Source: a virus. From it: a stretch of DNA of 29,905 bases. Both the position numbers and the translations under genes were made by a program. The DNA lies in IMG/VR virus record IMGVR_UViG_3300025108_000253, positions 1-29,905 of that record; one strand, given 5' to 3'. Below the pieces are notes generated by a model. It worked only from the letters and a program-made list of their open reading frames with translations, did not search any database and was not told the origin of the DNA. Each line of letters starts with the position of its first letter. Position 1 is the stretch's first letter. This document shows positions 12,218-27,565 of the stretch, in pieces.

Positions 12218-12237
12218 TTGACGCGGGGCGTCGGGGT
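12218..12237 (+). promoter_or_regulatory. TTGACG start element 1
   Basis: TTGACG lies exactly 20 nt before GTG 12238, with CGGGGT directly ahead of the start codon. This is the first of ten such elements. Confidence 0.6.
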
Positions 12238-12537
12238 GTGAAAGTTGATGTCGATATTGTGCGCGCTTATGCCGAAAAATATTCCCGCGCGGAGTTGGTC
12301 GTGATTCGGGACGCGGCCGTGGTTGCTCATTCGGGAAATCTCCCCCGGGTTGAGGTGACAGGTGCGAATTTTAAGGAAGGCGGATCGCAAGGGGTGTTTG
12401 TGGAAGGTGACACAAAAGAGGTGATGGCAATTTGCAATGCCGCGATTGATTATATTGATCGCGATGAGGACGCGGAGGCGCTGAAAAATCCCCAGGTGAA
12501 TCATTTGGATTTCAGCAATCGCGCGGTCCGGACTTGA
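12238..12537 (+). CDS. Small head protein, possible gpW-like connector
   Basis: The protein has 99 residues from GTG 12238, a start fixed by the TTGACG element. It lies between the terminase/accessory block and the portal, the position of gpW-type head-tail joining proteins in lambda-like phages. The sequence mixes helix (VDIVRAYAEKYSRAELVVIR) with short strands (PRVEVTGANF, GVFVEGDTKEVMAICNAAID). I do not see a decisive motif, so the connector role is from position only. Confidence 0.5.
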   Translation: MKVDVDIVRAYAEKYSRAELVVIRDAAVVAHSGNLPRVEVTGANFKEGGSQGVFVEGDTKEVMAICNAAIDYIDRDEDAEALKNPQVNHLDFSNRAVRT

Positions 12538-12556
12538 ATTTTTTGATTTGTGATTA

Positions 12557-12576
12557 TTGACGCAAGCTTTCAAAGT
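12557..12576 (+). promoter_or_regulatory. TTGACG start element 2
   Basis: TTGACG lies exactly 20 nt before ATG 12577. The CGGGGT part is weak here (CAAAGT). The spacing argues for ATG 12577 as the portal start rather than a codon near 12550. Confidence 0.5.
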
Positions 12577-14067
12577 ATGGCTCGCAGGGGAAAACGTGGC
12601 GGAAAAAATCGAAACAGGAAAAATGCTCAGGTTTCCGGAGGTGGTCCACTGCTTGACGGTGGGGGACCGGTGAATTTGAGCGGCTGGGATGCCGCGGAAC
12701 AGTCTGAGCGTCGGGGATATGTTGTTTGGCCTACCCTGGACACCGGCCGGGAATTGTCTGGTCATGATCGCCTGGAGGTGATGCGCAAGGCCCGGGCGGG
12801 TGTTGCAAACGTGGGATTTATGCGCCGATGTGAAACCGGGGTTTCTCGCCTTATTGGGACATTGACTCCCCAGGCGGCGAGCGGTGATGAGGAATATGAC
12901 AAACGAGCGGAGGAAGCGTTTTGGCGCCGCGCGGAGCACCCGCAAGCGTTTGACATGGCGGAGGAGATGAATTTTATGATGTGGCAGGGTGCCACAAAGC
13001 GGGCTAAGGTCGTAGATGGCGATGGCTTGTCGGTGTTGATGGAAGGGTCGGAAGGCGGCGGGAGAATTTTGTTTTACGGCGCGCATCAAATCGGGGACGG
13101 ACAAAGGCGTTGGAATGAAAAGATGCCGAAAAATCTCCGGGATGGGGTTTTTCTTACCAAGTTTGGTGGGCGGGCCGGGTTCCGGGTTCTTTCTGGGAAT
13201 GGCAAAGTTAAAGGGACAATCCCCCGGGAGCGGGGGGTCTATCATTATTCCCTGGAGCGTCCGGGCCGGGTGCGCCAAGTTTCGGGGTTAGCTCACGCGG
13301 TCAGCAATGTGATCGACCAGATTGAGATTTTGGCTGACACAAAGCACGCGGTAAAACTGGCGGCGCTTTGGGGTCTCTGGTTGGAGACTTCGATGGAGGG
13401 AGACGGCGGGGCGCAAGTTTCAAAGGATCTAAAAGCTTACCTCGGCGAAGGCGACGCGGGAGGTCCGCCGGTCCCGGCCGGGGGCGATGCTCAGGCCCAG
13501 ATGATCCAAATGGAAAAGGTTTTGCGGGGTGGAAAATTTCAGGGACTCAATCCGGGGCAAAGCGTGAAGGCTCTCCAGGATACGCGCCCGCATCCAAACA
13601 CAATTGCGCTTTTGAGTTGGATGATTCGCGACGTTGCAAGCGGTTTAAAATTGCACCCGGAAGTTTTATGGGATGCGTCAAAGATGAGCGGCCCGGGGAT
13701 GAGGTATGTTATGGCCGACACCAGGAGATTTATTGAGGACGAGCAAATGGATCTTGCCCGGGATTGTAAAAGAATTTGGATGTATTTCCTCGCTAAAGAA
13801 ATTCAAGCGGGAAGATTGGAGCGACCAAAGGAAGGGGCAAAATGGTGGGTCTCCCGGTGGATTCCCCAGGCGGACATGACCATTGACCGGGGTCGGGATG
13901 GAAAATTGGACGTTGAGCGCGTTGAGAAAAACTTAAAATCCCGTCAAGCGTTTTGGGGGGAGCAGGGAATGGATTGGAAAGAAGCTGAGGAGCAAGTTTT
14001 ACGCGAAGAAATTTGGCGCGAGAAAAAGCGCGCCGAACTGCAAAGCGAGCTCTTAGGAGAGGCTTAA
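12577..14067 (+). CDS. Portal protein, lambda family
   Basis: The protein has 496 residues from ATG 12577. The basic start (MARRGKRGGKNRNRKN) and RRGYVVWPTLDTGRELSGHD, RCETGVSRLIGTL, DGDGLSVLMEGSEG and HPEVLWDASKMSGPGMRYVM fit the lambda-type portal that forms the dodecameric DNA gate at one capsid vertex. Family portals have a helical hub around DTKHAVKLAALWGLWLETSM and a C-terminal crown. The large terminase upstream and the protease/scaffold downstream support the call. It contacts terminase during packaging and the connector afterwards. Confidence 0.85.
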   Translation: MARRGKRGGKNRNRKNAQVSGGGPLLDGGGPVNLSGWDAAEQSERRGYVVWPTLDTGRELSGHDRLEVMRKARAGVANVGFMRRCETGVSRLIGTLTPQAASGDEEYDKRAEEAFWRRAEHPQAFDMAEEMNFMMWQGATKRAKVVDGDGLSVLMEGSEGGGRILFYGAHQIGDGQRRWNEKMPKNLRDGVFLTKFGGRAGFRVLSGNGKVKGTIPRERGVYHYSLERPGRVRQVSGLAHAVSNVIDQIEILADTKHAVKLAALWGLWLETSMEGDGGAQVSKDLKAYLGEGDAGGPPVPAGGDAQAQMIQMEKVLRGGKFQGLNPGQSVKALQDTRPHPNTIALLSWMIRDVASGLKLHPEVLWDASKMSGPGMRYVMADTRRFIEDEQMDLARDCKRIWMYFLAKEIQAGRLERPKEGAKWWVSRWIPQADMTIDRGRDGKLDVERVEKNLKSRQAFWGEQGMDWKEAEEQVLREEIWREKKRAELQSELLGEA

Positions 14068-14073
14068 TTTGTC

Positions 14074-14090
14074 GAGTTTGCGGCAAACTC
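14074..14090 (+). other. Intergenic hairpin between portal and protease
   Basis: GAGTTTG, a CGG loop and CAAACTC form a perfect 7-bp hairpin, with no T tract after it. It ends 10 nt before the TTGACG element of the protease gene. It may stabilise or process the mRNA. Confidence 0.4.
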
Positions 14091-14100
14091 TCCGCGTGTG

Positions 14101-14120
14101 TTGACGGTGGCGCGCGGGGT
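14101..14120 (+). promoter_or_regulatory. TTGACG start element 3
   Basis: TTGACGGTGGCGCGCGGGGT directly precedes ATG 14121. The same 20 bases precede the tail-tube gene at 18277-18296. Confidence 0.65.
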
Positions 14121-15428
14121 ATGGCAAAAAATGGCTGGTATTCAATGAGCGCCTTAGGCGCGGTTTCTGGCGCGGTTGGCGAGGGTGATTCTCCAAAACA
14201 GGCGCGGGTTGATATTTTTGGAGAAATCGGCTGGGAGGTTTCGGGGTCGCGGTTTTTAAAAGATTTGCGCGGCTTGGGTGACGTTGAAGAAATTGATTTG
14301 CGCATCCATTCGGGAGGCGGTTCGGTGTTGGATGGTTGGGCGGTTGCCAATGGGATTTTAAATCATCCGGCAAAGGTGACGGCGCGCGTTGAGGGATTGG
14401 CCGCGTCAATGGCAAGCGTGATTGCGCTTGCGGCGGATGTTGTCGTGATGCCAGAAAATGCTTATCTTATGATCCATGATGTTTCCGCGGGTGCCTGGGG
14501 CGGGAGTGATGAGTTGCGGAGCGTTGCTGATTTGGTTGACAAGCTGGGGGATGACATTGTGAATTTCTACGCGAAGCGTTCGGAGCTTCCGGTTGACGAG
14601 GTGCGCGAAATGATGGCGGCGGAGACCTGGATGAATGGCGCGGAGGCATTGGAGAAAGGATTTGCTCATGAAGTCTTGGAGCCAGTCCAAGCGGCGGCGG
14701 TTGCGCAGGGCGTGAGTCTCGAAAACCGCTTTAGAAATGCCCCGGAAGAGTTGGTGAACATTTCCGAGGCAACACCCGAGGAAACTCCCGAAAAGACCCC
14801 CGAGGAAACTCCCGAGGAGGCCCCCGAGGAAGCTCCCGAGGAAGCTCCCGAGGAGACCCTCGAGGAAACTCCCGAAGAGACCCCCGAGGAAACTCCCGAG
14901 GAGACCCCCGAGGAAACTTCCGAGGAAACTCCCGAGGAGACCCCCGATGAAACTTCCGAGGAAACTCCCGAGGAGACCCCTGAACATTCTCAGGAGGTCG
15001 GAAATTCGGATGAGGGTGGAATTGTGAACAAATTTCGTTCTTTCTTGCGCGCCCGGGCTGGTTCCGGTGCGAGTGGTGAGAATGTTGATGGGAGTGCGGC
15101 AATTGCGGCGCTCCATGCAGAAAATGACCGTTTAAGCTTGGCGCTGGAAAAAGCGACGGCCGCGGCGGAAAATGCGGTTAGAGATCGTGATAGGTTAGAA
15201 GCTCGCGTTGAAACGCTAGAAGCTGAAAGCCGGGAACTTGACGCAATTTTGAGCGAAAGCGGGTTTACCGCCGCGGATGCTCATGACCTGCCAGCGCCCG
15301 ATGATGGCGATGGTGTCGAAAGTATTGAAGATCTGCAAAAGCAAATTCTTGAAGCGCGCGCAAGCGGTGACGCGGCGCGCGAGCGGGGTTTGCACAAACG
15401 GCTTCAAGCGGAAATCGCTGGAGCTTAA
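14121..15428 (+). CDS. ClpP-like head maturation protease fused to scaffold domain
   Basis: The protein has 435 residues from ATG 14121. The N-terminal 200 residues are a ClpP-type serine peptidase: IDLRIHSGGGSVLDGWAVAN, then GLAASMASVIALAAD with the nucleophile at Ser96, and MIHD with His119. The segment EETP repeats about 18 times (residues about 216-290), forming a long acidic linker. The C-terminus is helical and likely coiled coil (HAENDRLSLALEKATAAAEN, DRDRLEARVETLEAESRELD), as in scaffolds. Family members cleave scaffold and capsid during prohead maturation. A single protein thus supplies protease and scaffold. Confidence 0.82.
   Translation: MAKNGWYSMSALGAVSGAVGEGDSPKQARVDIFGEIGWEVSGSRFLKDLRGLGDVEEIDLRIHSGGGSVLDGWAVANGILNHPAKVTARVEGLAASMASVIALAADVVVMPENAYLMIHDVSAGAWGGSDELRSVADLVDKLGDDIVNFYAKRSELPVDEVREMMAAETWMNGAEALEKGFAHEVLEPVQAAAVAQGVSLENRFRNAPEELVNISEATPEETPEKTPEETPEEAPEEAPEEAPEETLEETPEETPEETPEETPEETSEETPEETPDETSEETPEETPEHSQEVGNSDEGGIVNKFRSFLRARAGSGASGENVDGSAAIAALHAENDRLSLALEKATAAAENAVRDRDRLEARVETLEAESRELDAILSESGFTAADAHDLPAPDDGDGVESIEDLQKQILEARASGDAARERGLHKRLQAEIAGA
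14771..14983 (+). repeat. 12-bp coding tandem repeat (EETP)
   Basis: About 18 imperfect copies of the 12-base unit CCCGAGGAAACT encode EETP/EEAP/EETS repeats in the protease-scaffold linker. Synonymous and GCT/GCC/TCC variants show that the array is diverging. Such an array is prone to copy-number change. Confidence 0.85.
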
Positions 15429-15493
15429 CAAAAGGGCCGGGGTCTCCTTTCAAACGGCTCCATTTTTAACAAAATTTAAAAGAAACTATTATT

Positions 15494-16423
15494 ATGGCTA
15501 ATTCATTAGGAACTACTTTGGGCGATAACATTTCGCAAAGCGTCTTGGATCATTTGGTGGAGGCGATGCCTCCTCTGATGCGTTTTTACATGGGCTTTTC
15601 AGACCAGCGTGCGCGCAAGGACGAAACAATTAAAACCCGCATTCCATCAGTGACGGCGGCTTATGACGCATCGAGCGGATACAGTGCAAAGGATGTTACT
15701 GGAACGGATGTTTCGGTTACTGCTTCAAACTTTAAAGCAACATCGGCTTCATTTTCCCCGGCCGAAATGAGTTCAACAAATCGCGATTTGATTGCTGAGT
15801 TCGCTGCGCCTCTCGCAAGCGCGCTTGCGGAGGGCTTGCTTGATGACTTTTACGCAATCATTACGGCAAGCGCCTTTACGAATTCAAATGTGAAAGTTGC
15901 CGCTGATATGGATAGCGACACTTGCCGCTTGATTCGCAAAAAGCTTTCCGCTCGCAAGGCTCCCCTCATCGGGCGTCTCGGGGTTCTCAATGGCGACGCT
16001 TATGAGGCTCTTACCGGCGATCCGCTTGTAAATTCAATTGATAGCAATCCCGCGGCTCACGATGTGGTAAGCCTGGCGCCCGCTTCTATTGTTCATGCCG
16101 GGGCAACCTGGTTTGAGGCTCCAAACCTTCCGAATAATTCCGAGGCTCTTAATGGGTTCGTAATGGCTCCCGGTGCCATTGTTGGCGCAACCGGAGTTCC
16201 GCGTGATGCCAATGAAGACGGTCTTGTTGGATGGGAAGATGTGCCGAGAAATGCGGCCGTGCGCGTTGTGAGTGACCTGGACGAAGACGGCCAGGGAACC
16301 GGAATATCTGTCCTTGAGCGTCGGACCCGGAAAGAGGACGGATCTGCTCAAATTGATTACGCATGGATTTACGGATTCGCGGCGGGCAATGCGGCCCTCC
16401 TTGAGCGTGTCACTGAGTCCTAA
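15494..16423 (+). CDS. Major capsid protein
   Basis: The protein has 309 residues, the right size and place for an HK97-fold coat. The N-terminus (MANSLGTTLGDNISQSVLDH) leads into an extended-loop-like stretch (TRIPSVTAAYDASSGYSAKD, VTASNFKATSASFSPAEMSS). The spine-helix region is DLIAEFAAPLASALAEGLLD. Later strands include GFVMAPGAIVGATGVPRDAN and SAQIDYAWIYGFAAGNAALL. There is no separate decoration gene upstream as in lambda. The leader has no Shine-Dalgarno site and is AT-rich (TTTAAAAGAAACTATTATT). Placement after protease/scaffold is the main support. Confidence 0.82.
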   Translation: MANSLGTTLGDNISQSVLDHLVEAMPPLMRFYMGFSDQRARKDETIKTRIPSVTAAYDASSGYSAKDVTGTDVSVTASNFKATSASFSPAEMSSTNRDLIAEFAAPLASALAEGLLDDFYAIITASAFTNSNVKVAADMDSDTCRLIRKKLSARKAPLIGRLGVLNGDAYEALTGDPLVNSIDSNPAAHDVVSLAPASIVHAGATWFEAPNLPNNSEALNGFVMAPGAIVGATGVPRDANEDGLVGWEDVPRNAAVRVVSDLDEDGQGTGISVLERRTRKEDGSAQIDYAWIYGFAAGNAALLERVTES

Positions 16424-16457
16424 TCGCGGGAAAGCTCAATCTGTAGTTTTTGAAATT

Positions 16458-16706
16458 ATGAGAAATTTGAATATCGTTGTTTCTGCAAGTGCAGATGGAA
16501 AGCTAAAGGCCGACTATATCGGGTTTAACCGCTCAGAGGCAAAAGCCGAATTTGCGAAGATCGTGGAAGCCGGGAAAGTTGACGAGGTGTTTTTCATCGA
16601 CCGTCCTGAAATGCGTCGCAAGCGACCGAAGGTAATTGCGGCGGCGGTAAAAGCTGCGAAGCCCGCAAAACCAGCGGCGAAAAAAGCAAAAGCAAAACAA
16701 GTTTGA
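16458..16706 (+). CDS. Small basic protein downstream of capsid
   Basis: The protein has 82 residues. I choose ATG 16458, which follows TTGAAAT and the capsid stop by 34 nt. The first 55 residues are mixed alpha/beta (LNIVVSASADGKLKADYIGF, AKIVEAGKVDEVFFID). The C-terminus is a Lys/Ala/Pro tail (KAAKPAKPAAKKAKAKQV) that could bind DNA or a capsid surface. It ends just before a strong terminator, so capsid plus this gene form a unit. The role could be decoration or head completion, but it is not recognised. Confidence 0.6.
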   Translation: MRNLNIVVSASADGKLKADYIGFNRSEAKAEFAKIVEAGKVDEVFFIDRPEMRRKRPKVIAAAVKAAKPAKPAAKKAKAKQV

Positions 16707-16729
16707 TTGGTAGTGTTTTTTCATAGTGC

Positions 16730-16765
16730 ACGCGCGCGGGTTTCGGCCCGCGCGCGTTTTTTTTT
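16730..16765 (+). terminator. Strong rho-independent terminator after capsid unit
   Basis: ACGCGCGCGGG (16730-16740) pairs with CCCGCGCGCGT (16747-16757) around TTTCGG. Nine T follow at 16757-16765. It separates the capsid unit from the connector genes, whose TTGACG element begins 9 nt later. Confidence 0.9.
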
Positions 16766-16773
16766 CTGCGGTT

Positions 16774-16795
16774 TTGACGTGGCGGGGCGAGGTGT
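16774..16795 (+). promoter_or_regulatory. TTGACG start element 4
   Basis: TTGACG is 22 nt, not 20, before ATG 16796; CGAGGT occupies the usual CGGGGT position. It follows directly on a terminator, so downstream genes need a promoter here or readthrough. Confidence 0.5.
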
Positions 16796-17128
16796 ATGGG
16801 TTTGGCAGATGGTCGATTAGATTTTTTGGCGGCGGCGCAAGCGGCGCTTGAATCATTGTTTCCGGGTGAGTTGGAGGTGGTTGATGAGCCAAGTTTAGGA
16901 ACGATTGATTGCGTCCGAAGTTCGGACGTTCGCGCGGAAGATGCGGCCAGGGGCGGATTTGAGTTGGATGAGGTGGTGAGCATCCGGGTGCGTGCTGAGT
17001 TGCTTTCGAGTGGCGGACTCGCGGTCGATGATTTGGTGGATTTAGACGGGCGACGGATGCGGGTTTCGTCCACTAGCCGGGAGCCAGGAGATCCGGCCTG
17101 GATGATTGAATTGATGGCGGCGGAATGA
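16796..17128 (+). CDS. Head-tail connector or stopper protein (probable)
   Basis: The protein has 110 residues. The N-terminal helix (ADGRLDFLAAAQAALESLFP) is followed by a beta domain (VVSIRVRAELLSSGGLAVDD, DLDGRRMRVSSTSREPGDPA). Size and order are those of lambda gpFII/SPP1 gp16-type stoppers between the head genes and the gpZ-like protein. No diagnostic motif is visible. It overlaps the next gene by ATGA. Confidence 0.55.
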   Translation: MGLADGRLDFLAAAQAALESLFPGELEVVDEPSLGTIDCVRSSDVRAEDAARGGFELDEVVSIRVRAELLSSGGLAVDDLVDLDGRRMRVSSTSREPGDPAWMIELMAAE

Positions 17129-17799
17129 GCGAGATAAAAGTCAAAGGACTACAAGAAACTCGGCGAGAGATTGACGCTTTGCGGCGCCGGTTGAAAATAA
17201 GCGGAGGAGAATTCGCAAATTTGGCGGCGCAAGTCGTTAGGGATACCGTAACAAGAAATGCGCAACCATTCGGGAACGGGAAGAAGTCTCTTGAAAAAGG
17301 CAAAAACGCCATCCGAAAGGATTTGCTTAAAATATTTAAAATCGTCCCTGACTCGGCCCGGGGCCAGCGTGGTGTGATTGTGAGCGCGGCGGAGGCAAAA
17401 AGCTGGCACAAGTCCCGGCGCGGAAACCGAGGGCGCACAGTCTCAGGGCAGCAAAAGCGCATCGCGTCGAGCGTTTTCAGGGCTTACATGGATTCGTTAT
17501 TTTTGCGCGTCGGGATGGCGAAAGGGTCGGTGACAGGCGGGAATGATTCCCGGCTTTCTGGGAGGTTTGCGAAGTGGGTCTCCCGCTGGAGTAGTGCGGG
17601 AAGTGCGTCGAGAAGGTCGGGTCTTGGGGGAGCCGTCTGGAAATTTGAAGCGGAGCCGTCCCACGTTGCGCGCAATAACGTGATGGGAAGGAAAGGGATT
17701 GAGCGGGTCTTTCGCGCGAAAGAAAGAAACCTTCGAAACCGGTTGAGGCGTGATTTGAAACGGAGTTTAAAAAAGGCGGAAAAGAAAATTAATAGGTGA
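17125..17799 (+). CDS. Minor tail protein Z-like (tail completion)
   Basis: The protein has 224 residues and is very basic. It combines a helical start (ETRREIDALRRRLKISGGEF), a middle with many Ser/Gly/Arg (KSWHKSRRGNRGRTVSGQQK, WSSAGSASRRSGLGGAVWKF) and a Lys/Arg-rich C-terminus (RNLRNRLRRDLKRSLKKAEK). This composition and place, after the connector and before the tail terminator/tube genes, suit gpZ-type tail completion proteins. The match rests on arrangement and general character rather than a firm motif. Confidence 0.55.
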   Translation: MSEIKVKGLQETRREIDALRRRLKISGGEFANLAAQVVRDTVTRNAQPFGNGKKSLEKGKNAIRKDLLKIFKIVPDSARGQRGVIVSAAEAKSWHKSRRGNRGRTVSGQQKRIASSVFRAYMDSLFLRVGMAKGSVTGGNDSRLSGRFAKWVSRWSSAGSASRRSGLGGAVWKFEAEPSHVARNNVMGRKGIERVFRAKERNLRNRLRRDLKRSLKKAEKKINR

Positions 17800-17806
17800 G
17801 TTTGAT

Positions 17807-17826
17807 TTGACGCGGCGGCGCGGGGT
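17807..17826 (+). promoter_or_regulatory. TTGACG start element 5
   Basis: TTGACG is exactly 20 nt before ATG 17827, with GCGGGGT before the start. It begins only 8 nt after the previous stop. Confidence 0.6.
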
Positions 17827-18273
17827 ATGGTTGTGAGTGATCGTTTTTTGGTGGCTTTGGGTGAGTATCTTGACGCCCGCGGGTTTTCATACCCGGCCCG
17901 GCTGAGAGACTGGAGCGGCGTAAAAGGGCAAGAAACTTTGGTTTTAGATGCTGACGAACCGGATGAGCATGAGGGTCTTGACGGGGTGTTCTCAATCGAC
18001 GGTGTTGTTGCTTTGCGCGTCCACCCGAGAGATACCACAGACGAGGAGCGCCGGGATTTGCTTGCGGATTTGAGCGAGTATTTAGAAGACGATGATTCCA
18101 CAGGATTCCTTGCGTGGGTAAATAATTCCGAAAACGAGCGGGGATTGGCCGCGGATGAGGGGTTGCAGGTTTACGAGTTCCGCGTCGATATTGGAATCTG
18201 GGAACTCGACGAAAAATTTATTTCGGGGAAAGTTGAGTTTTCTGCGATGATTGCGGGAAGTAATCAATCTTGA
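17827..18273 (+). CDS. Tail terminator-like protein (gpU position)
   Basis: The protein has 148 residues and is acidic. The N-terminus (SDRFLVALGEYLDARGFSYP) and later strands (VVALRVHPRDTTDEERRD, GLQVYEFRVDIGIWELD) give the helix-strand order seen in gpU-type tail terminators. It lies directly before the tail tube, which also supports the role of capping tail length and joining the head. The assignment is mainly positional. Confidence 0.5.
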   Translation: MVVSDRFLVALGEYLDARGFSYPARLRDWSGVKGQETLVLDADEPDEHEGLDGVFSIDGVVALRVHPRDTTDEERRDLLADLSEYLEDDDSTGFLAWVNNSENERGLAADEGLQVYEFRVDIGIWELDEKFISGKVEFSAMIAGSNQS

Positions 18274-18276
18274 CGG

Positions 18277-18296
18277 TTGACGGTGGCGCGCGGGGT
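18277..18296 (+). promoter_or_regulatory. TTGACG start element 6, with extra TTGACG upstream
   Basis: The 20 bases before ATG 18297 match those at 14101. A second TTGACG at 18270-18275 lies 7 nt upstream and overlaps the previous stop codon. Confidence 0.65.
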
Positions 18297-18680
18297 ATGG
18301 CTGCAAAAGTTTATGGTGACATTGAATGGGGAATGACCGCGGAGGATGGGATGTATGCGCAATCATTTGATTTCACATATTCCGCCCAGGAACTTTATAT
18401 TGCTGACGAGGACGGCGATGACGTTTCTGGTGCGATTTTTAATCCTTCAGCATCTTTCGCGCTGAACGGTTTTAAGAAAACAAGCGGAACACAAATGGAA
18501 CCGAAACTAGGGGCGGCGCTGACAATGGCAAACGATGAGGAATCGGAAAGTTTTGTTGATGGAACTCTGACAGGCGCAAAGGCTTTGGTCACTTCTGTCA
18601 AGCGTGGTCTTAAAACACGAGACGCGGCTACCCTGGATATTTCCGGATCATGGAAGCCGTTCATGGGAAGCTTGGCGTAA
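18297..18680 (+). CDS. Major tail tube protein (probable)
   Basis: The protein has 127 residues from ATG 18297, a start set by the TTGACG element. It is largely beta (QSFDFTYSAQELYIADEDGD, SFALNGFKKTSG, TLDISGSWKPFMGSLA), with acidic loops, as expected of small siphovirus tube subunits. Its place between the tail terminator and the G/GT chaperone genes is the standard tube position. A terminator after it suggests high, separate expression. Confidence 0.6.
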   Translation: MAAKVYGDIEWGMTAEDGMYAQSFDFTYSAQELYIADEDGDDVSGAIFNPSASFALNGFKKTSGTQMEPKLGAALTMANDEESESFVDGTLTGAKALVTSVKRGLKTRDAATLDISGSWKPFMGSLA

Positions 18681-18681
18681 C

Positions 18682-18743
18682 TTAGCGGTTTCGCTAAAGC
18701 CCGCGTTTCCTTTCTCCAATTCACTCGGGAGGCGCGGGCTTTT
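18682..18743 (+). terminator. Terminator after tail-tube gene
   Basis: TTAGCG-GTTT-CGCTAA (18682-18697) precedes a larger stem, AAAGCCCGCG (18696-18705) pairing with CGCGGGCTTT (18733-18742) across a 27-nt loop. A short T run follows. Efficiency is uncertain because the loop is large. Confidence 0.6.
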
Positions 18744-18773
18744 AAAATTAAGTGAGTTGGGTGATTGAGATTG

Positions 18774-19196: not shown

Positions 19197-19216
19197 AATG
19201 ATTGATTGATTGAGAT

Positions 19217-19627: not shown

Positions 19628-19872
19628 TAGACGCGAGCGATCCGCCCGTTTGGTGGGTCGATTATCTTGCTTGTATTGCCAGGGAGACCGGATGGAGCGC
19701 GGAATTTATTTTGTGGGATCTTCCCTATGCGCTGGGGATGGGAATCATGCACGCGGCCGGGATCTTTCATGGTAGCGTGATGAAGCTTGTCGAGGGAGAA
19801 GAAAAGGGAGTTCAGGAAATGCGAAAAGAGTTTGCGTCCCTGAAAGAAAAATATCTTTTAAAAACGGAATGA
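19594..19872 (+). CDS. Tail assembly chaperone, T-type frameshift extension
   Basis: This is the -1 frame continuation of the G-type chaperone, adding about 92 residues for a fusion of about 218. The extension starts GGPQAGGEG, then LLIDASDPPVWWVDYLACIA and a helical end (EGEEKGVQEMRKEFASLKEK). A TTG at 19621 could be a separate start, but it has no ribosome site, and the frame is open back to the slip site. In lambda, the T part binds the tail tube while G binds the tape measure. The stop overlaps the next small gene by ATGA. Confidence 0.7.
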   Translation, partial: GGPQAGGEGLLIDASDPPVWWVDYLACIARETGWSAEFILWDLPYALGMGIMHAAGIFHGSVMKLVEGEEKGVQEMRKEFASLKEKYLLKTE

Positions 19873-19988: not shown

Positions 19989-20008
19989 TTGACGGCGCGG
20001 AACGGGGT
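19989..20008 (+). promoter_or_regulatory. TTGACG start element 7
   Basis: TTGACG is exactly 20 nt before GTG 20009, with ACGGGGT ahead of the start. It decides the amidase start over an in-frame TTG at 19982. Confidence 0.6.
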
Positions 20009-20491
20009 GTGAATGATCCTTACCCGGAGCGCGTGAGTTTGTCGCCAAATAAGGGCGGAAAGATCGCGCCTAAGTTTATCATTCTGCACCATACCGCTGG
20101 CAATTTTTCGGGTTCGGTTTCCTGGTGTCTAAAGTCGCAATCAAAGGTTTCATATCATTACATTATTGATCCCTCGGATGGGTCTCGGGTTCAAATGGTA
20201 TGGGACACAAAGCGGGCCTGGCACGCGGGGAAATCACGGTGGGGTAAATATCGCGGATTGAATGGCTACTCGGTCGGGATCGCGTTTGACCGGGACACAA
20301 ACACGCGGACACCAGGCGATCATGAAATTGATTCGGCGGCGCACAAATGTATTTATCTAATGCGCAAGTTTTCGCTGGGACCAGATTCAATTTTGACTCA
20401 TGCCCAGGTTTCTCCCGGCCGGAAAAATGATGTGAGCAAAGAAACTCACGATTTAGTTTTGGGTCGGGTCGGTGTTCTTTTGAGTGATTGA
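20009..20491 (+). CDS. N-acetylmuramoyl-L-alanine amidase (Amidase_2), endolysin or tail lysin
   Basis: The protein has 160 residues from GTG 20009. The family cuts the amide bond between muramic acid and the peptide in peptidoglycan. Zinc ligands appear as His27 (ILHHTAG), His131 (LTHAQVSPGRKND) and Asp141, ten residues apart as in AmpD-type enzymes. Lys139 and Tyr49 (SYHYII) correspond to residues important in the T7 lysozyme group. The usual glutamate in SIGIE reads SVGIA here, so catalysis may follow the T7-like rather than AmpD mode. No signal peptide is seen, so a holin would be needed if it is the lysis enzyme. It lies just before the tape measure, far from the holin-like gene, so a tail-associated role is also possible. 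Confidence 0.85.
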   Translation: MNDPYPERVSLSPNKGGKIAPKFIILHHTAGNFSGSVSWCLKSQSKVSYHYIIDPSDGSRVQMVWDTKRAWHAGKSRWGKYRGLNGYSVGIAFDRDTNTRTPGDHEIDSAAHKCIYLMRKFSLGPDSILTHAQVSPGRKNDVSKETHDLVLGRVGVLLSD

Positions 20492-20507
20492 CGTTGCGCG
20501 GCGGTGC
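20488..20507 (+). promoter_or_regulatory. TTGACG start element 8
   Basis: TTGACG overlaps the amidase stop codon and lies exactly 20 nt before ATG 20508. The start-proximal part reads GCGGTGC rather than GCGGGGT. Confidence 0.55.
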
Positions 20508-22049
20508 ATGGCAGCTTTGACGTTTAAGGTGGGGGGTGATACTTCCGGTTTGGGCACCGCGACCAATAAAGCAAAAGGAATGCTCAGTGGCTTGGCTAAA
20601 TTTGCAAAAGGCGCGGCTATTGGTGGTATGCTAGCGGGCGCGGCGGCAAGCGCGGTTGCCTTAGTGAAAGGATTTGGGGGATTGCGTGACGCAATTGATT
20701 TAGGCGGTGATCTAAGCGACTTGGCATCTCAAACCGGGATTGCGGTGGGGGAATTGGTAGTGTTGCAGCGGGCTTTGAGGGACAACGGTGCATCCGCGGC
20801 CGACGCTGGGCCTTTGATTAACAAAATGCAAAAAGGGATTGTTGACCTGGGGGCCGGTCTTTCGACACAGGTGAGAGCTTTTGGCCGTCTTGGTTTGAGT
20901 TACGACGAAATCGCCTCGAAAAGCCCGGGCGATCAATTTGAGTTGATCCAAAAACGAATTGCCGCAATGGAAGATCCAACGAAGCGGGCGGGGACTGCGA
21001 TGGAGGTTTTTGGGCGGAGCGGCGCAAAATTGCTCGCGATGTTCGACGATGCGAGCGCGATGGATAAAGCCCGCGTGAGCGTAGGCGGGCAAGCCGAAAT
21101 CTTAGAAAAAAACGCGGCGGAATTGGATCGTTCCAGCGATCTGATGAAAGGGATTGGTGACAAGTTTATGGGCTTTTTTGTCGGGATGGCGCCATTTGTA
21201 AATGCCCTTCTTTTGCCGGTTTTGGAAAACATAAACAAAATTGACCTTGCCGGGTATGGCGCGGCGGTGGGGCGTTTCTTCGCGATGTTTGGTGAAGCTT
21301 TTAAACAAGGGGCGATTCCGACGATGATTAAGGATGGCCTTTTAATTGCCGGAAAAGAATTGATTAATTTTTTGGTAAAAGGGTTTCGGGGTTTGATTGC
21401 TGGTTTGCTCGCGCAGATTTCGGCAATTCCGCGGATGTTTATGGGCATGATTCGGATGATGGCAGATCCCGAGATGTGGTCGGGTGTTGGGAAAATCTTG
21501 ATTGGTTTAGGGAAAAAAATGAGCGTTGCATTTTTGCAAATGATCCCGGAGCGATTGCGAGAAGGGGCAGACGTAGCGACGGCGAGCGATCTAAACTTTT
21601 TCAATCGCAAAGCGGGAGAGGATATCCTGGCCGGGAAAAATCAAATTATGCGCTCGCAAGGTTTTAGCTCTTATATTGAGGCATTAAAAACCTCGGCTGG
21701 AGAAGTTTCTAAGGCTTTTATGGACGAAATGGATGGGAGCGATGTGATTGACGCATCTGGAGAACGGAAAAGGCTGGGGGAGAGTCTTGATAAGCTCCGC
21801 GACGCAGTTGATAAAAATTCCGAAAGCAAAGAAGAAGAAGAGGAAAAAAAAGCTGGCTTGGTTTTGCCTGGGGACGGTGAGGGTTTTGCTACTGGTTTTT
21901 TGAAACCAATTGTTTCGAGTCTTGGAAAGGTTGGGGGCGCGGCTTTGAGCGGAGTTCAGGGGATGACGATGGACCGGGAAAGAAACAAGCTCTTGAATAT
22001 GATCGAGCGAAACACGCGGGAGGGTTTAGGCCCGGCCGTCTATGCGTAA
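20508..22049 (+). CDS. Tape measure protein
   Basis: The protein has 513 residues from ATG 20508. The start (MAALTFKVGGDTSGLGTATN) followed by Gly/Ala-rich hydrophobic stretches (LAKFAKGAAIGGMLAGAAAS) and long helices is typical. Later hydrophobic parts (MGFFVGMAPFVNALLLPVLE, FRGLIAGLLAQISAIPRMFM) could insert in the host membrane during DNA ejection. A 513-residue ruler predicts a short tail, roughly 75-80 nm by the usual 0.15 nm per residue. It follows the chaperone genes as expected. Confidence 0.82.
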   Translation: MAALTFKVGGDTSGLGTATNKAKGMLSGLAKFAKGAAIGGMLAGAAASAVALVKGFGGLRDAIDLGGDLSDLASQTGIAVGELVVLQRALRDNGASAADAGPLINKMQKGIVDLGAGLSTQVRAFGRLGLSYDEIASKSPGDQFELIQKRIAAMEDPTKRAGTAMEVFGRSGAKLLAMFDDASAMDKARVSVGGQAEILEKNAAELDRSSDLMKGIGDKFMGFFVGMAPFVNALLLPVLENINKIDLAGYGAAVGRFFAMFGEAFKQGAIPTMIKDGLLIAGKELINFLVKGFRGLIAGLLAQISAIPRMFMGMIRMMADPEMWSGVGKILIGLGKKMSVAFLQMIPERLREGADVATASDLNFFNRKAGEDILAGKNQIMRSQGFSSYIEALKTSAGEVSKAFMDEMDGSDVIDASGERKRLGESLDKLRDAVDKNSESKEEEEEKKAGLVLPGDGEGFATGFLKPIVSSLGKVGGAALSGVQGMTMDRERNKLLNMIERNTREGLGPAVYA

Positions 22050-22081
22050 GAAGTCTAGTTTTAATTTTTTAATTTGTAAAA

Positions 22082-22819
22082 ATGAGCACATTTCACGGAC
22101 TCGGGCTGGAAAAAAAGTTTGGTCTTAAATTGTCCAGGGACAAAATGGGCCTCTGGTCGGGCACCCAGGTTTATACCTGCTTGCGGTCCGAGTTGGCGAG
22201 AGTTGTTCCGGCCCAGGGGAGTCCCCATGAAGATTTTCCGTTTTTGACAGTAGATCAAATCGAAAGCGTTGAAGGGCTAGAGGGCGGGTTGATGAAAATT
22301 GTCGCGCGATATGCGGGCGCGTTGGGTTTATACGACGAAGATTCCCCCGAAAATATTCCCGAATATAATCTTGAGGTCACGACCAGCGACGAACCATTGG
22401 CAACGCATCCAAAATATGAAGATTTAGACGCAGACGAGCGCGCGGAGGCAGTCGAATTGGCGACAAATCCGCCGATGGAGGACGACAAGGAGACGCTAAA
22501 GGAAATTGACACAAGCGATTGGGCGGACAACAAAATTGAGCTTTACGAAAAAATGAGGAGCGGGGTTGAGGCATTCCGAGATCCAAAGGTGGTTTGGTCA
22601 AAGCGTTGGGTGAGTGAATCTTTACCGGCAAACCTTAACAAGACGGGCGAAATTGACAGTCCCGGGGGAAGTCCCCCGGCTGTGGCGGCGAATCGAAATT
22701 GGCTTTACCTTGGCGCGCGGACCAGGATTCGCGGACTTGTCTACGAAATCGAAGAAAGTTGGGAATTGTCAGGACGCGGAGGATGGGATGATGATTTGTA
22801 TGGACCGGATGCGGAATAA
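22082..22819 (+). CDS. Tail-tip region protein, unknown
   Basis: The protein has 245 residues and is acidic. It sits right after the tape measure, where distal tail proteins lie. Visible parts are GLGLEKKFGLKLSRDKMG, a strongly acidic middle (HPKYEDLDADERAEAVELAT) and a beta C-terminus (NWLYLGARTRIRGLVYEIEE). I see no recognisable distal-tail or hub motif. The leader is AT-rich with no Shine-Dalgarno site. Confidence 0.55.
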   Translation: MSTFHGLGLEKKFGLKLSRDKMGLWSGTQVYTCLRSELARVVPAQGSPHEDFPFLTVDQIESVEGLEGGLMKIVARYAGALGLYDEDSPENIPEYNLEVTTSDEPLATHPKYEDLDADERAEAVELATNPPMEDDKETLKEIDTSDWADNKIELYEKMRSGVEAFRDPKVVWSKRWVSESLPANLNKTGEIDSPGGSPPAVAANRNWLYLGARTRIRGLVYEIEESWELSGRGGWDDDLYGPDAE

Positions 22820-22837
22820 GTTTTTAGTGATTGAAAT

Positions 22838-24025
22838 ATGAAACTACCCCAAAAAGTGCAGCCGGGCGAGCCGGTAAAAGCGGAAGACTTCAATGATCTG
22901 CTGGATTTTGTGAAGTCCTTGGAAATCAAAAGCGGCCCCGGCTATTTGCCTCGGCGCTCACCAGGTGGGACGGCTCTCAACCTTCTCCGAAAAGGTGGAG
23001 GTGGCGGCGACGCGGGTGCGCCGCCAAGTTTTCGGATGCGCTCAGTTCGTCGGGGGACTGGAGATGATTCAGATGTTTTTTACGTCAAAATTGAGGCTGG
23101 TTATGTGACAAACGGAAACCCAAGAGATCCAGGGCCAATTCGGACCTACAATATGGTCTATGTCGAAGGGGTTGGGGAAGAAGGTTCGGATGTCCGTTTG
23201 GATGCTGAAGAAGCGCCTGAAATAGCAATGTCTGCGGGAGAGTTTCTTTATCTAAAAACAGAGTTGGACGATACTGGCCAAGTGAAATCCGATGTTGAGG
23301 TTTATACCTATGTCTCATCGGATGGTGAGCTTGAGGGCACGCACTATATTCCCGAAGCTCCGGAGATGGGAGGAGCAACCGATGGTGAACATTATCGGAA
23401 AATTTTGGAGTTGGAGTCTCTCCCGGTCGATCCCGGGGCGCCTCCAAAGGTCCGCGCGATTCAGTGGTATGAGGGAGATGTTGAGTTGTCTCCGTATGTC
23501 TGGAAAGCGGCTCATCCAAATGGGACCGGTGTTGGGCCTTATCATCAGTATGAGGAGGATGATGGGGTCCACGAATTTAGAAGTCACAAAGAGATTTACG
23601 GGCACCTGGTCGAGTGGGATGGAGAATATCAGATTGAGCACAATTTCGACGCGGAAAATATGGACCCGGGAAGCCTTAACGGAGCGAGCAGTGCGGAGGT
23701 CTATCGTGAGAAAGCGGAGACACAAGCCGAGGGCCTCACAACGAAAGCGGAGTTTCGAAAACTTACGCAGGGAACAGATGACGCGCGGCAGGAAATTTCA
23801 GTTGATCAAATCGGCGACAGAATTGAAATCAAGGGAAATGACGTAGATGACGCGCTGTCGATTAACGATGGCGGCGCCGCCTTAAATTTGTTGGTGCCCG
23901 CGGATGGCTTGGTTAAATCCGTCACAAACCGGATTTCAACTATGGAGCTTGACGTTTGCCAACCTGGCGCGACTTCGGGAGATCCTCCATCAAAGGTCAC
24001 TAAAAAATTCCTAATTTTGACCTAG
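22838..24025 (+). CDS. Structural protein of tail tip or baseplate (probable)
   Basis: The protein has 395 residues. The start MKLPQKVQPGEPVKAEDFND, then LLDFVKS and GPGYLPRRSPGG, has the form pGdp..A.d.N.L.d.. seen in many phage virion proteins by my recollection. The rest is beta-rich and acidic (VFYVKIEAGYVTNGNPRDPG, AGEFLYLKTELDDTGQVKSD), with a glycine run GGGGGDAG as a hinge. Start context TTGAAAT is immediately before ATG 22838. It is likely a tail-tip or fibre-attachment protein, but the function is unproven. Confidence 0.55.
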   Translation: MKLPQKVQPGEPVKAEDFNDLLDFVKSLEIKSGPGYLPRRSPGGTALNLLRKGGGGGDAGAPPSFRMRSVRRGTGDDSDVFYVKIEAGYVTNGNPRDPGPIRTYNMVYVEGVGEEGSDVRLDAEEAPEIAMSAGEFLYLKTELDDTGQVKSDVEVYTYVSSDGELEGTHYIPEAPEMGGATDGEHYRKILELESLPVDPGAPPKVRAIQWYEGDVELSPYVWKAAHPNGTGVGPYHQYEEDDGVHEFRSHKEIYGHLVEWDGEYQIEHNFDAENMDPGSLNGASSAEVYREKAETQAEGLTTKAEFRKLTQGTDDARQEISVDQIGDRIEIKGNDVDDALSINDGGAALNLLVPADGLVKSVTNRISTMELDVCQPGATSGDPPSKVTKKFLILT

Positions 24026-24032
24026 CAGAAAA

Positions 24033-24497
24033 ATGGGAAATTTTTTGATAACGCCAATTTGGCTCCCGACATTTGAAGAAAGAGTTTGTTGTTTATCGGG
24101 AGGAATGACTGGCGTCCGGAGCGAAGGCACATACACAGGTTTCAATGATGACGATCCGGATTTTTGGTGGCAATTTATGATCTGGTCAACGATTAGCAGT
24201 CGGACGGTTGAGTTTGGCATTTGCTGTTCTAAAAATCTTGAGATTGATATTTACTACGATTCATTTGACGCGGATGAATTTGTGGGGGTTTTCAAAATCA
24301 CGGTCCAGGACGCTGACGGGACGCGCGTGATTTTTGATGGAACGCAAGAGGCGCTTCCTTTGTCACCAGGGACTAAATCTTGGACAATCACGGAGGATGT
24401 GCAACCGCGAGCCTGTGGCGTCATCGTCACAATTGAAGGCGCGGTGACTGATACCGATCAGGGTGAGTTTTCGGTCACGGATGTCACTGTGAGTTGA
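24033..24497 (+). CDS. Beta-rich tail protein, unknown
   Basis: The protein has 154 residues, with a likely beta-sandwich pattern (FVGVFKITVQDADGTRVIFD, KSWTITEDVQPRACGVIVTI, GEFSVTDVTVS). The N-terminal part has several Cys and Trp (ERVCCLSGG, DDDPDFWWQFMIW, FGICCSKNLE). It could be a carbohydrate- or fibre-binding module of the tail tip. It starts 7 nt after the preceding gene and ends inside the first TTGACG at 24494. Confidence 0.5.
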   Translation: MGNFLITPIWLPTFEERVCCLSGGMTGVRSEGTYTGFNDDDPDFWWQFMIWSTISSRTVEFGICCSKNLEIDIYYDSFDADEFVGVFKITVQDADGTRVIFDGTQEALPLSPGTKSWTITEDVQPRACGVIVTIEGAVTDTDQGEFSVTDVTVS

Positions 24498-24511
24498 CGC
24501 GGAAAGATCAA

Positions 24512-24531
24512 TTGACGAAGGAGGGCGGGGT
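24512..24531 (+). promoter_or_regulatory. TTGACG start element 9, with extra TTGACG upstream
   Basis: TTGACG is exactly 20 nt before GTG 24532, with GCGGGGT ahead of the start. Another TTGACG at 24494-24499 overlaps the previous stop. GGAGGG lies between, so a Shine-Dalgarno contribution is possible here. Confidence 0.6.
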
Positions 24532-25830
24532 GTGAAGCTTTTTGTCGATCTTGATATCCGGCGTTTTGTTGTCTCTCCCGGGGTTCGGTCTGAGCCGAGA
24601 GGGCTTGAATTCAAAAGAGGAGACGCGGCAAGCGTGGAAATTGTTTTTTGCCGCGGCGCGGAAGAGGTCCAGCTTGAATCCGTTGCGGAAATCATTTGGG
24701 AGGTAAAAAAAGAGGGGGACTATTCGGGAGATCCGATAATCCGGGCGGAAAATATGAGCTACGTTAGCGGCTACTATACCGGCGCGCCCGTTTTTGATGC
24801 CACGGCAATTGATGCCGAGTTTACAAGCGACCAAGAATTTTTCGCGGCGATGATGGAAGTAACCTGGCGCGAGCCTTCGGCGTCGGGTTATACCTCAACA
24901 AATACCGCCCCTCTAAATGTCCACAATGATGTCATTAAAGAGGGCGAAGAATTGCCCGCGCTTTTGCTTGGGGGTGTCCCGGGAACCTCGGCAGAGGCCG
25001 AATTGGTATTTGCCGCAACCTCGGGCGTTCCTGACTCTGGAACTCTCGATCTTGATGGAGATGAGATCCATTTTAGATCAACAAGCGCCGGGGGGTCCGC
25101 TCCATCTGGCGCTTTGATTACATATTCAGCGGGCGGAAGTGTTGGTGATTTTTTGCCCGCGCTTGCCGACGTAATAAACACCGGGATCACGTCCGTCTCA
25201 GGTTTTACGGTAACGGGCAGCCCTTCGGCTCATGCAAACATTTCCGCGACTACGTCACTGGATAGTTCCCTAAATATCACGCTAAAATTCACGGCGAAAG
25301 TTGCTGGTGTTGCTGGTAATTCTCGGACCTATGATTTTGATGCTTCCGACAATTCCTTAGACCGAAGCGGGACCCTTTCGGGTGGAGTAGATCCGCGCAA
25401 TGTTTTGATTGGTGATTTAGTCACGACATTTGAGCCGGAAACATCGTTGACAAGCGGCGAAAAATCCCAGGCCCGCAATAACATCTCGGCGGCCCCGGAT
25501 AATGTGATTGAGGCAAGTCTTGCCCCTCAAACTCTGACGGACGCGGCGACAATTGTTTACGATATCTCCCAGGGCAAAAATGCGGAGGTGACTTTGACGG
25601 CAAACAGAACTTTAAGTTTTCCCTCAAACCTTTTTGCTGGCGCGTCGGGCGCTCTGGTTGTTGCGCAAGATTCGACCGGCGGGCGCTCCTTGACGCTCGC
25701 ATCTGGTTGGTTTGTTTCCGCGGGAGATGTTGCTGATTTTACGAGCTTAGCGGCAAATGAAAAAATTCAAATCACTTGGTATTGTGTCGATCTTTATAAT
25801 GTGAACGCCACGGTCCTTCTACTGCAATAA
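24532..25830 (+). CDS. Baseplate upper protein-like / receptor-binding scaffold
   Basis: The protein has 432 residues from GTG 24532. The N-terminus (MKLFVDLDIRRFVVSPGVRS, LEFKRGDAASVEIVFCRGAE, EIIWEVKKEGDYSGDPII) has the layout of BppU-type N-domains that anchor receptor-binding proteins. The middle carries repetitive beta stretches (SASGYTSTNTAPLNVHNDVI, TFTSGTLSGG-like turns), and the end (VTLTANRTLSFPSN, GGRSLTLASGWFVSAGD) is typical of fibre tips. It shares one base with the next gene, so the two are probably co-translated. Confidence 0.55.
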   Translation: MKLFVDLDIRRFVVSPGVRSEPRGLEFKRGDAASVEIVFCRGAEEVQLESVAEIIWEVKKEGDYSGDPIIRAENMSYVSGYYTGAPVFDATAIDAEFTSDQEFFAAMMEVTWREPSASGYTSTNTAPLNVHNDVIKEGEELPALLLGGVPGTSAEAELVFAATSGVPDSGTLDLDGDEIHFRSTSAGGSAPSGALITYSAGGSVGDFLPALADVINTGITSVSGFTVTGSPSAHANISATTSLDSSLNITLKFTAKVAGVAGNSRTYDFDASDNSLDRSGTLSGGVDPRNVLIGDLVTTFEPETSLTSGEKSQARNNISAAPDNVIEASLAPQTLTDAATIVYDISQGKNAEVTLTANRTLSFPSNLFAGASGALVVAQDSTGGRSLTLASGWFVSAGDVADFTSLAANEKIQITWYCVDLYNVNATVLLLQ

Positions 25831-27176
25831 TGTCAACGATCCTTCCCGGCTTTTTTCGCCCGCTTGGGTTCGATCCCTTGTCTCTCGAACCTGTTTTGGC
25901 TTTTTCCGCTCAGTCATCCATGCTTGAGGCAGGGGGCGCGGCCGCGGAAAATCTTGATCTGGTCCCTACACTTCAAAACCTGGTATCCGGCGGCGCTAAT
26001 GCTTCGCAGTCAACCGCCTCTAAACAACCCCGCGCACATGTGCCACTCGGTGATGGTCATTTGTATCTTCCCGGAGTCAGCGGAAATTACGCGAGTGTTC
26101 CCGATGCAAACAACCTTGATGGATTTGGTGATTTCGCCTTGGAATTCGTAGGGTCTTCCGAAGACTGGCACGCTGGACTCGCGATGACGTTGATTGGCAA
26201 ATGGAATAGTTCCGGTGGGTATTTTGTCCGGTTACAGGCAAACGGAACTCTGTTTTTTCTTTATAACACCTCGGGCGGGCAGAATTACCACTACTCAACC
26301 GCCGCGCATAACCTCGTGGATGGGGCGAAAGGTGGGATCAGAGTCATTCGGGATGGTTCATCGATTAAGTTTTACGAAAACCTCTTCAGCGGGAATGGGT
26401 GGCAGCAAATAGGGTCGAATGTCTCGGGTAGTGCGACGACGTTGGTAAACGGATCACAAGCCTTGGAGGTTGGAACATACAACGGAGGGAATGCTTACCC
26501 ATTCAACGGGCCAGTCTTATCGACTAAAATATGGAACTCTTCTTCGCCCGACACCGCCTCGCCTGTTTTGGACATTGATTTCTCTGACGGCGATCACAAA
26601 GCCTCGTCGTTCACTTGCTCGACAGGTCAAACCGTTACTGTTCACAGGACAGGTTCTGACCCGGCGACGCTTATAGGCAGAAACGTCCTCCGGTTTGACG
26701 GCTCAAATGATTACATTGGTAACAGTTTAAGCTCAGACCTCAACACAGCACATGCCTTTATCAAATTCGCAGTAAATGGCGACACTTTCTCAAGCACCGC
26801 GCCGACAACGATGGCTTTGTATCGCACAGAGCATTGGCTAACAAACGCAGCGGCGATGTTTATAGGAGTTGGAACAACATCTACAAACGCAAGGACATTT
26901 ATTGGAGCTACTGTGATGCAGCAGTCTGGTAAATGGAACGACGACAACGAAACAATTATCGCGGAAATCAGCATCTCTGACGGGGCGCACTTTTCAAAAG
27001 TAAACAACGCGAATCTTTTGACTGACAGTCGAGCCTATTCACTAAATTCTAATAAGTTTAGAATTGGAGCGGGTTCAACCAGTGGAAATGCTTCAATTGA
27101 CGTTGAGCAAATATACCTGTTCGACTTCGTTCTCTCCTCTGGCGAATCTGCTAAAATGTTTAAACATTTAGAATAA
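25830..27176 (+). CDS. LamG-like tail fibre, probable receptor-binding protein
   Basis: The protein has 448 residues and appears to carry two concanavalin/LamG-type jelly rolls. The first is near residues 80-240 (HLYLPGVSGNYASVPDANNL, FALEFVGSSEDWHAGLAMTL, KWNSSGGYFVRLQANGTLFF, GGIRVIRDGSSIKFYENLFS). The second is near 285-445 (VLRFDGSNDYIGNSL, FRIGAGSTSGNASIDVEQIY). Such domains bind sugars, so this is the best candidate for host recognition. Codon use in the second half is richer in A-ending codons than in the head genes, which suggests exchange of tip domains. Confidence 0.68.
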   Translation: MSTILPGFFRPLGFDPLSLEPVLAFSAQSSMLEAGGAAAENLDLVPTLQNLVSGGANASQSTASKQPRAHVPLGDGHLYLPGVSGNYASVPDANNLDGFGDFALEFVGSSEDWHAGLAMTLIGKWNSSGGYFVRLQANGTLFFLYNTSGGQNYHYSTAAHNLVDGAKGGIRVIRDGSSIKFYENLFSGNGWQQIGSNVSGSATTLVNGSQALEVGTYNGGNAYPFNGPVLSTKIWNSSSPDTASPVLDIDFSDGDHKASSFTCSTGQTVTVHRTGSDPATLIGRNVLRFDGSNDYIGNSLSSDLNTAHAFIKFAVNGDTFSSTAPTTMALYRTEHWLTNAAAMFIGVGTTSTNARTFIGATVMQQSGKWNDDNETIIAEISISDGAHFSKVNNANLLTDSRAYSLNSNKFRIGAGSTSGNASIDVEQIYLFDFVLSSGESAKMFKHLE

Positions 27177-27526
27177 TGAGTGACAAAAATATTTTAGAAA
27201 ATGCCCTCACTGAGCTAGAGCGAGATCAGTTAGACTCAGGTTGGGTTCATTTTGTTTGCACAATCGAATCTTTCCCTAATGTTTCCGATTACGTAAATAA
27301 TTCGCGCGGGTATCCAAACGGGGCAACTGTCAGAGGTCTACCTCTTGAAGATGATTTGATTGTGGCTAATGATGACTCGGGGAGGCTGATGCTTAAACTC
27401 GCCACCTGGCGCGTGAGCGGCGATGATATTTCGGCGCTTCAACCATTCATTGACGATGGGGATATTTCAATTTTGACAAGCGCCGAATTTGCGGCGCTAA
27501 AACCCGAGGAAACACAAAATATTTAA
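27176..27526 (+). CDS. Fibre-associated protein, unknown
   Basis: The protein has 116 residues, starting at the last base of the fibre stop (TAATG). The sequence is mixed (LENALTELERDQLDSGWVHF, NNSRGYPNGATVRGLPLEDD, RLMLKLATWRVSGDDISALQ). Small genes directly after fibre genes are often fibre chaperones or minor tip proteins. I see no motif that decides between these. Confidence 0.5.
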   Translation: MSDKNILENALTELERDQLDSGWVHFVCTIESFPNVSDYVNNSRGYPNGATVRGLPLEDDLIVANDDSGRLMLKLATWRVSGDDISALQPFIDDGDISILTSAEFAALKPEETQNI

Positions 27527-27545
27527 ATTGCGATCTTTTGATAGT

Positions 27546-27565
27546 TTGACGCCATGGGTCGTTGC
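27546..27565 (+). promoter_or_regulatory. TTGACG start element 10
   Basis: TTGACG is exactly 20 nt before ATG 27566; the start-proximal part reads TCGTTGC. It argues for ATG 27566 over the in-frame ATG at 27554. Confidence 0.5.

Follow-up and report, generated by a model that had tools for sequence, protein, structure and literature searches.

What does a short sequence do that stands at one nearly fixed distance before the start codons of ten genes in a phage genome? The question is raised by IMG/VR virus record IMGVR_UViG_3300025108_000253, analysed over its whole length of 29,905 nucleotides (nt; 29.9 kb) and referred to below as the window, in which the hexamer TTGACG precedes ten genes in this manner. 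A first-pass annotation of the same DNA had offered three mechanisms without choosing among them: an unusual promoter, a phage-specific late control element and a translation-initiation signal. Our analysis disfavours the promoter and favours translation initiation. To the reading that we prefer, a phage-specific, start-associated signal that would act in the mRNA at translation initiation independently of a Shine-Dalgarno (SD) sequence, we give not quite an even chance.

Start-locked elements in the window

The window has the gene layout of a temperate lambda-like siphovirus. The portal (by PHROGs), head maturation protease, major capsid, amidase endolysin and tape measure genes were identified, and a ParB-like protein, a primase, the large terminase, a holin and a tyrosine integrase are also among the gene products. 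All ten copies of TTGACG considered here lie on the plus strand at the positions and spacings reported earlier, with the start codon exactly 20 nt on in nine cases and 22 nt on in the tenth. The series begins with TTGACGCGGGGCGTCGGGGT (12218..12237), which precedes the GTG at 12238 of a gene for a 99-aa protein. The portal gene (ATG at 12577) follows TTGACGCAAGCTTTCAAAGT (12557..12576), a copy without the GG box described below, and the protease gene (ATG at 14121) follows TTGACGGTGGCGCGCGGGGT (14101..14120), whose 20 nt recur unchanged at 18277..18296 before the ATG at 18297. Between the latter two lie the 22-nt form TTGACGTGGCGGGGCGAGGTGT (16774..16795, before the ATG at 16796) and TTGACGCGGCGGCGCGGGGT (17807..17826, before the ATG at 17827). 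Further on, TTGACGGCGCGGAACGGGGT (19989..20008) precedes the GTG at 20009 of the endolysin gene; TTGACGTTGCGCGGCGGTGC (20488..20507), whose TGA ends the endolysin gene, precedes the ATG at 20508 of the tape measure gene; TTGACGAAGGAGGGCGGGGT (24512..24531) precedes the GTG at 24532; and TTGACGCCATGGGTCGTTGC (27546..27565), again without a GG box, precedes the ATG at 27566 of the holin gene.

The earlier observation that most copies end in CGGGGT directly before the ATG or GTG holds for six of the ten (those before 12238, 14121, 17827, 18297, 20009 and 24532), among them all three GTG starts; the other four end in AGGTGT, CAAAGT, CGGTGC and CGTTGC. The start lock is kept in wide intergenic gaps, such as the 136-nt gap before 20009, and the element helps to settle several start codons of window genes, as had been proposed. 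TTGACG also occurs in tandem at 18270/18277 and 24494/24512; in each pair the first copy contains the stop of the gene before it, and the start-locked element is the second. Elements are missing from the early genes, terminase included, from the major capsid gene (start at 15494) and from the genes starting at 17125, 19217, 22082, 22838, 24033, 25830, 27176 and 28080. The genes without an element have an SD-like stretch, an overlap with the upstream gene or an A/T-rich leader, as does the major capsid gene (15428..15493, plus strand).

The lock is far beyond chance. TTGACG stands at -20 in 9 of 30 window starts, compared with a mean of 0.03 and a maximum of 2 at all other register shifts of these starts; the element itself guided the choice of some of them, and start-unbiased counts therefore weigh more. 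When every ATG or GTG followed by at least 50 open codons is counted, TTGAC is found ten times at distance 20, where other distances average 1.0; one of the ten (14593) is a chance copy within the protease gene. Among all upstream pentamers, the two that rank highest are TTGAC at -20 and TGACG at -19, ahead of TTTGA at -21, GGGGT at -5 and CGGGG at -6. TTGACG as such is present in 31 copies on the plus strand and 5 on the minus strand, and lone intragenic copies carry no meaning.

Most window copies read in frame as [FIV]-D-x-x-x-R-G-[MV], so that the pattern could in principle be a codon artefact, with in-frame Asp-x-x-x-Arg-Gly peptides ahead of misplaced starts, or plain chance. The probability that we leave to either is negligible: several window sites have an in-frame stop shortly before them (12211, 17803), the TGA within TTGAC is itself an in-frame stop at spacings of 19 and 22 nt, and the same enrichment is seen in independent phages. 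This explanation is already refuted by the register counts together with the enrichment in relatives. The in-frame TGA was also considered as the feature in its own right, and rejected as not required, because spacings of 20, 21 and 23 nt are used too.

Recurrence in related phages

Absence of TTGAC enrichment from relatives had been named as a possible refutation; enrichment was found both in prophages and in viral contigs. In 20 pooled verrucomicrobial portal-bearing loci, the TTGAC-to-start distance peaks at 19 nt (63 against about 8), with 31, 24, 23 and 18 cases at 20, 21, 22 and 23 nt. The element is present in 18-19 related prophages, where TTGACA is strongly oriented with the genes; the element-free pair among the portal loci, Akkermansia phage Moulinsart (L038) and L092, are closely related to each other.

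An independent set of 92 IMG/VR viral contigs (0.96 Mb), fetched by capsid protein, gave the same picture. TTGACA stands 194 times at 19 nt before starts, 79 times at 20, 53 at 22 and 21 at 23 nt, over a background of 5.1, in a set that includes near-duplicates, and it was found at 16 and 18 nt in no case; 439 sense copies compare with 38 antisense ones. The window form TTGACG occurs 28, 30 and 19 times at 19, 22 and 23 nt over a background of 2.7. Removal of near-duplicates left 179 elements, a set in which redundancy is reduced while kinship remains, gene starts are inferred and genomes are often fragmentary. Relatives of the protease in viral contigs had no TTGAC enrichment, since most of them are unrelated phages, and the capsid alignment contained no stretch conserved enough for use as a search query.

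On these counts the element marks a family of temperate lambda-like verrucomicrobial phages and is not private to the window phage. The suggestion of a phage-specific late control element thus stands only in part: the element is virus-specific, with the sampled host DNA lacking it (see below), but it belongs to more than one phage and does not mark late genes in general, because in relatives it also lies ahead of integrase genes (five phages) and of ParB-like genes. The major capsid gene has no element at 19-24 nt before its start in 18 of 19 members of the family, a rule that includes the window. The major capsid leaders of L093, L095-L098, L102 and G463 are often G-poor and C/A-rich, and L097 has a TTGACAC 57 nt upstream. 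Wherever the early region of an element-bearing relative was read, a ParB-like homologue is present, and the element-free Moulinsart has none; across a dozen genomes the ParB-like gene appears to track the element, as a correlation only. The window copy of this gene (ParB_N and HTH_ParB domains) lies at 2855..4267 on the plus strand.

Anatomy of the element

The element has two parts and the consensus [G/T]TTGAC[A/G]-N10-GG-N1..5-[A/G]TG. The second box is a GG at offset 16 from the first T of TTGAC, and the start codon follows 1-5 nt later. The lock to the start codon described in the first-pass annotation is therefore real but not a lock to the start alone: what keeps a fixed distance from TTGAC is the GG box, after which the start comes at a short variable distance. 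When the non-redundant elements are aligned on TTGACA, nothing upstream is conserved apart from an avoidance of C immediately before the hexamer; downstream lies a C-rich stretch and then G at offsets 16-17 in 52-71%, giving TTGACAC-N9-GG. With starts at 19, 22 and 23 nt alike, about 40-60% of elements have a GG that begins at offset 16. For starts at 21 nt or more in the viral contigs, 42 of 62 elements have the GG at offsets 15-18 and 6 of 62 have it beside the start codon. The best window copies, with GGGG at offsets 15-18, have the same geometry. A GG at offset 16 accompanies 53% of start-locked TTGACA and 13% of unlocked copies; the complete two-box element thus occurs only at starts, because unlocked TTGACA is mostly without GG.

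Start-codon use varies with spacing. In prophages GTG is the start in 21 of 44 cases at 19 nt and in 2 of 52 at 20 nt or more (p=4e-7), and in viral contigs in 30 of 89 and 11 of 90 (p=7e-4), so that in both data sets GTG starts are found mostly at 19 nt, the tightest spacing.

The arrangement of two boxes locked to each other rather than to the start codon, with minimal leaders preferred, could also be that of a phage-specific promoter, one per gene, whose nearly leaderless mRNAs would begin at the GG box. The GG would provide a purine start, and of the starts mapped in Akkermansia, leaderless transcripts account for about 10% (PMC4782308). The element also shares its TTGACA with the -35 hexamer of sigma-70 promoters. 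However, no -10 box follows 17 nt on, where the sequence is already coding; its lack after TTGACG had been pointed out for the window and is borne out by the aligned elements, which show none in columns 22-30. Nothing is conserved upstream of TTGAC, the spacer is mostly G+C and hard to melt, and elements occur among densely packed genes. If a host sigma factor read the element, host genes would be expected to use it too, and a single-subunit (T7-like) RNA polymerase (PF00940) was not found in 11 host genomes, in a search without a positive control, nor seen among the scanned window genes. We therefore consider a promoter improbable. The window genes at 10466 and 11234 have TTTACA-17-TAA[AT]TT arrangements upstream instead.

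In the 19- and 22-nt forms, the stretch from TTGACA to the start folds slightly more strongly than recombined controls do, but no pair of positions is fixed or covaries. A fixed hairpin as part of the design was accordingly not upheld, although single copies contain strong hairpins. At L094 16427, L097 15029 and L091 5352 (0-based, gene-oriented), a strong hairpin (about 6-7 base pairs) comes after TTGACAC and directly before the ATG, which lies 26-35 nt away rather than 19-23. Such hairpins between boxes and start in some copies would suit mRNA processing, in which a sequence-specific endonuclease would cut phage mRNA in or after UUGACA-N10-GG and leave short leaders, with the same geometry as a promoter and no DNA to melt. 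We hold this to be less probable still: there is no nuclease candidate, no base pairing at fixed positions, and unlocked copies of UUGACA that lack the GG are also present within genes.

Probable host and absence from sampled host DNA

The host of the window phage is very probably a member of the Verrucomicrobiota, because of a tRNA-derived attachment site and the nearest portal relatives. The 39 nt at 28593..28631 (minus strand) are identical, in our own reading, to the 5' part of a tRNA-Arg gene and are likely the attP; among the genomes searched the piece has exact matches in only two, one of them a Verrucomicrobiales bacterium. The tyrosine integrase gene, without an element in this phage, lies beside it (28657..29784, plus strand), and GGTGGACTACC is repeated around the attP candidate at 28465-28500 and 28674-28709, possibly as integrase arm sites. 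Moulinsart is the only named phage matched by the window portal, and portal homologues are present in 36 of 286 genomes from the class of the genome matched. A megablast search of the late region against named phages gave no match, and a search of viral contigs for close relatives by terminase or portal returned only one contig, which is identical.

Host genes do not appear to use the element. TTGAC is not enriched at element distances in 400 kb of the chromosome of one verrucomicrobial genome (G130) or in smaller samples of three other genomes; the host samples of G026 and G080 include the prophage locus of each. An early impression of a host-wide signal was discarded once this lack of enrichment was seen. 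In 12 whole genomes TTGACAN10GGCRTG has 31 matches, mostly on prophage contigs, and several of the remaining ones also adjoin phage genes; the reversed control has 0. A stricter form is rare over 289 genomes of the phylum, and TTGACGN8CGGGGTRTG has 7 single matches in 388 Verrucomicrobiota genomes, judged to be chance. For the host DNA sampled, the element is thus a feature of phages and not of host genes. In G463, contig C17 has near 257280-257302 a palindromic TTGACAGAAAGCGGGATGTCAA with TTGACA on both strands.

A proposed role in translation initiation and a possible DNA operator

We infer an effect on translation from the sequence and geometry of the element, its occurrence only at starts, its recurrence in relatives, its absence from the host DNA sampled and the trade-off between spacing and start codon. 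That it serves the start codon is suggested by the lock in wide as well as narrow gaps, the sharp lower limit of spacing, the decay over a few nt, the start-codon trade-off and the lack of complete elements elsewhere. UUGAC and GG in the mRNA would be recognised as one unit of fixed geometry (UUGAC-N11-GG), and the first AUG or GUG just downstream would be taken as the start, most strongly at the tightest spacing. Because host genes do not use the element, its reader would be encoded or induced by the phage. A possible though doubtful extension is a private initiation code across the family, in which the bipartite UUGAC-N11-GG would direct ribosomes without SD pairing, by way of a phage factor or a phage-altered ribosome, and would go unused by the host. 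One Akkermansia species and a second verrucomicrobial strain have been reported to be SD-scarce (PMC10783764).

The element resembles an SD site in lying upstream of starts at a short variable spacing and in tolerating weak start codons when the spacing is tight. It differs in that it has as a rule no AGGAG core, in that GG lies only 1-5 nt from the start, which supports the earlier judgement that GGGG is too near the start for an SD site, and in that UUGAC has no complement in the 16S tail, nor do the elements offer pairing with that tail 5-10 nt from the start.

Several points weigh against initiation. The 16S 3' tails that were read (CCTCCTTTCTAAGGAG and similar) contain no GTCAA, hence no match to TTGAC, and host genes are without the element, so that a factor must be postulated; we know of no host or phage component able to read UUGAC. 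Recognition across a spacer that is fixed at 10 nt but free in sequence is more typical of double-stranded DNA than of single-stranded RNA. Presumably no gene is translated more than that of the major capsid, and it lacks the element in nearly all members of the family.

Rigid spacing would suit a DNA operator, bound by a phage repressor at an asymmetric site before each gene and silencing prophage genes as the repressor of cluster A mycobacteriophages does. The stoperators of such phages (L5, D29, TipsytheTRex; PMC9283540, PMC6550527) share with the element asymmetry, orientation with transcription, more than 20 copies, a sense-strand core TTGACA with a C-rich flank and nearness to gene starts and stops. 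The D29 stoperator on the sense strand, CTTGACAKCCACC, is strikingly like the TTGACACC-rich element consensus, and in cluster A a monomeric repressor with two DNA-binding domains reads the asymmetric site (PMC9283540). Here too the sites are many per phage genome and absent from host DNA. Yet stoperators, which are bound by the immunity repressor in lysogens and for which no GG box is reported, are not start-locked (in D29 the distances are 0, 24-26, 40, 60, 62, 106 or none), whereas the elements are, and complete ones are confined to starts. Elements ahead of integrase genes in five phages and their absence from the early genes of the window, terminase included, also argue against silencing, and a roadblock leaves the GTG effect unexplained. 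An operator of this kind is unlikely, if less so than a promoter.

The nearest described kind is the start-associated sequence (SAS/ESAS) of cluster K mycobacteriophages (PMC3203893, PMC12699233), whose function is unproven. Both are short asymmetric repeats just upstream of many phage starts, mostly in one orientation and absent or nearly absent from the host. In the SAS, 13 contiguous nucleotides (GGGATAGGAGCCC) include an SD core; they stand 3-7 base pairs from mostly ATG starts, in 11-19 copies, in the non-structural half of the genome. In contrast, the element is the bipartite TTGAC-N11-GG without an SD core, allows GTG, is found in phages of another bacterial phylum and is not restricted to non-structural genes, lying largely on structural ones (portal, protease, tape measure). 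We found no description of it in the open-access literature searched. Relative to the SAS, its sequence, bipartite form, gene set, start-codon use and host phylum differ, while position, orientation and host absence are shared.

Other repeats in the window

A 106-nt leader at 10348-10453 is repeated at 11113-11218 with 88% identity, in both cases before small genes, and a third, shorter copy lies near 10827. It contains a promoter-like pair TTTACA-17-TAA[AT]TT, followed by G+C-rich sequence that may form a hairpin and, ahead of the ATG, by GACAGAAA; Rfam gave no match in the window, this leader included. In the linker after the protease domain, at 14728-15027, a 12-nt repeat of the Glu-Thr-Pro-Glu type is present in 17 register copies. 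At 420-544, ACCCTGGACAA is repeated in both orientations, which may represent operator or origin sites.

Significance

The element improves the annotation of start codons in the poorly annotated phages of this family. If it turns out to act as an operator, stoperators would have a start-locked relative outside the Actinobacteria. For the question of how bacteria without SD sequences, some Verrucomicrobiota among them, choose their start codons, a signal that is strong, start-locked and confined to phages, about 100 of which carry it, provides a defined sequence and possibly a handle on an initiation factor or regulator.

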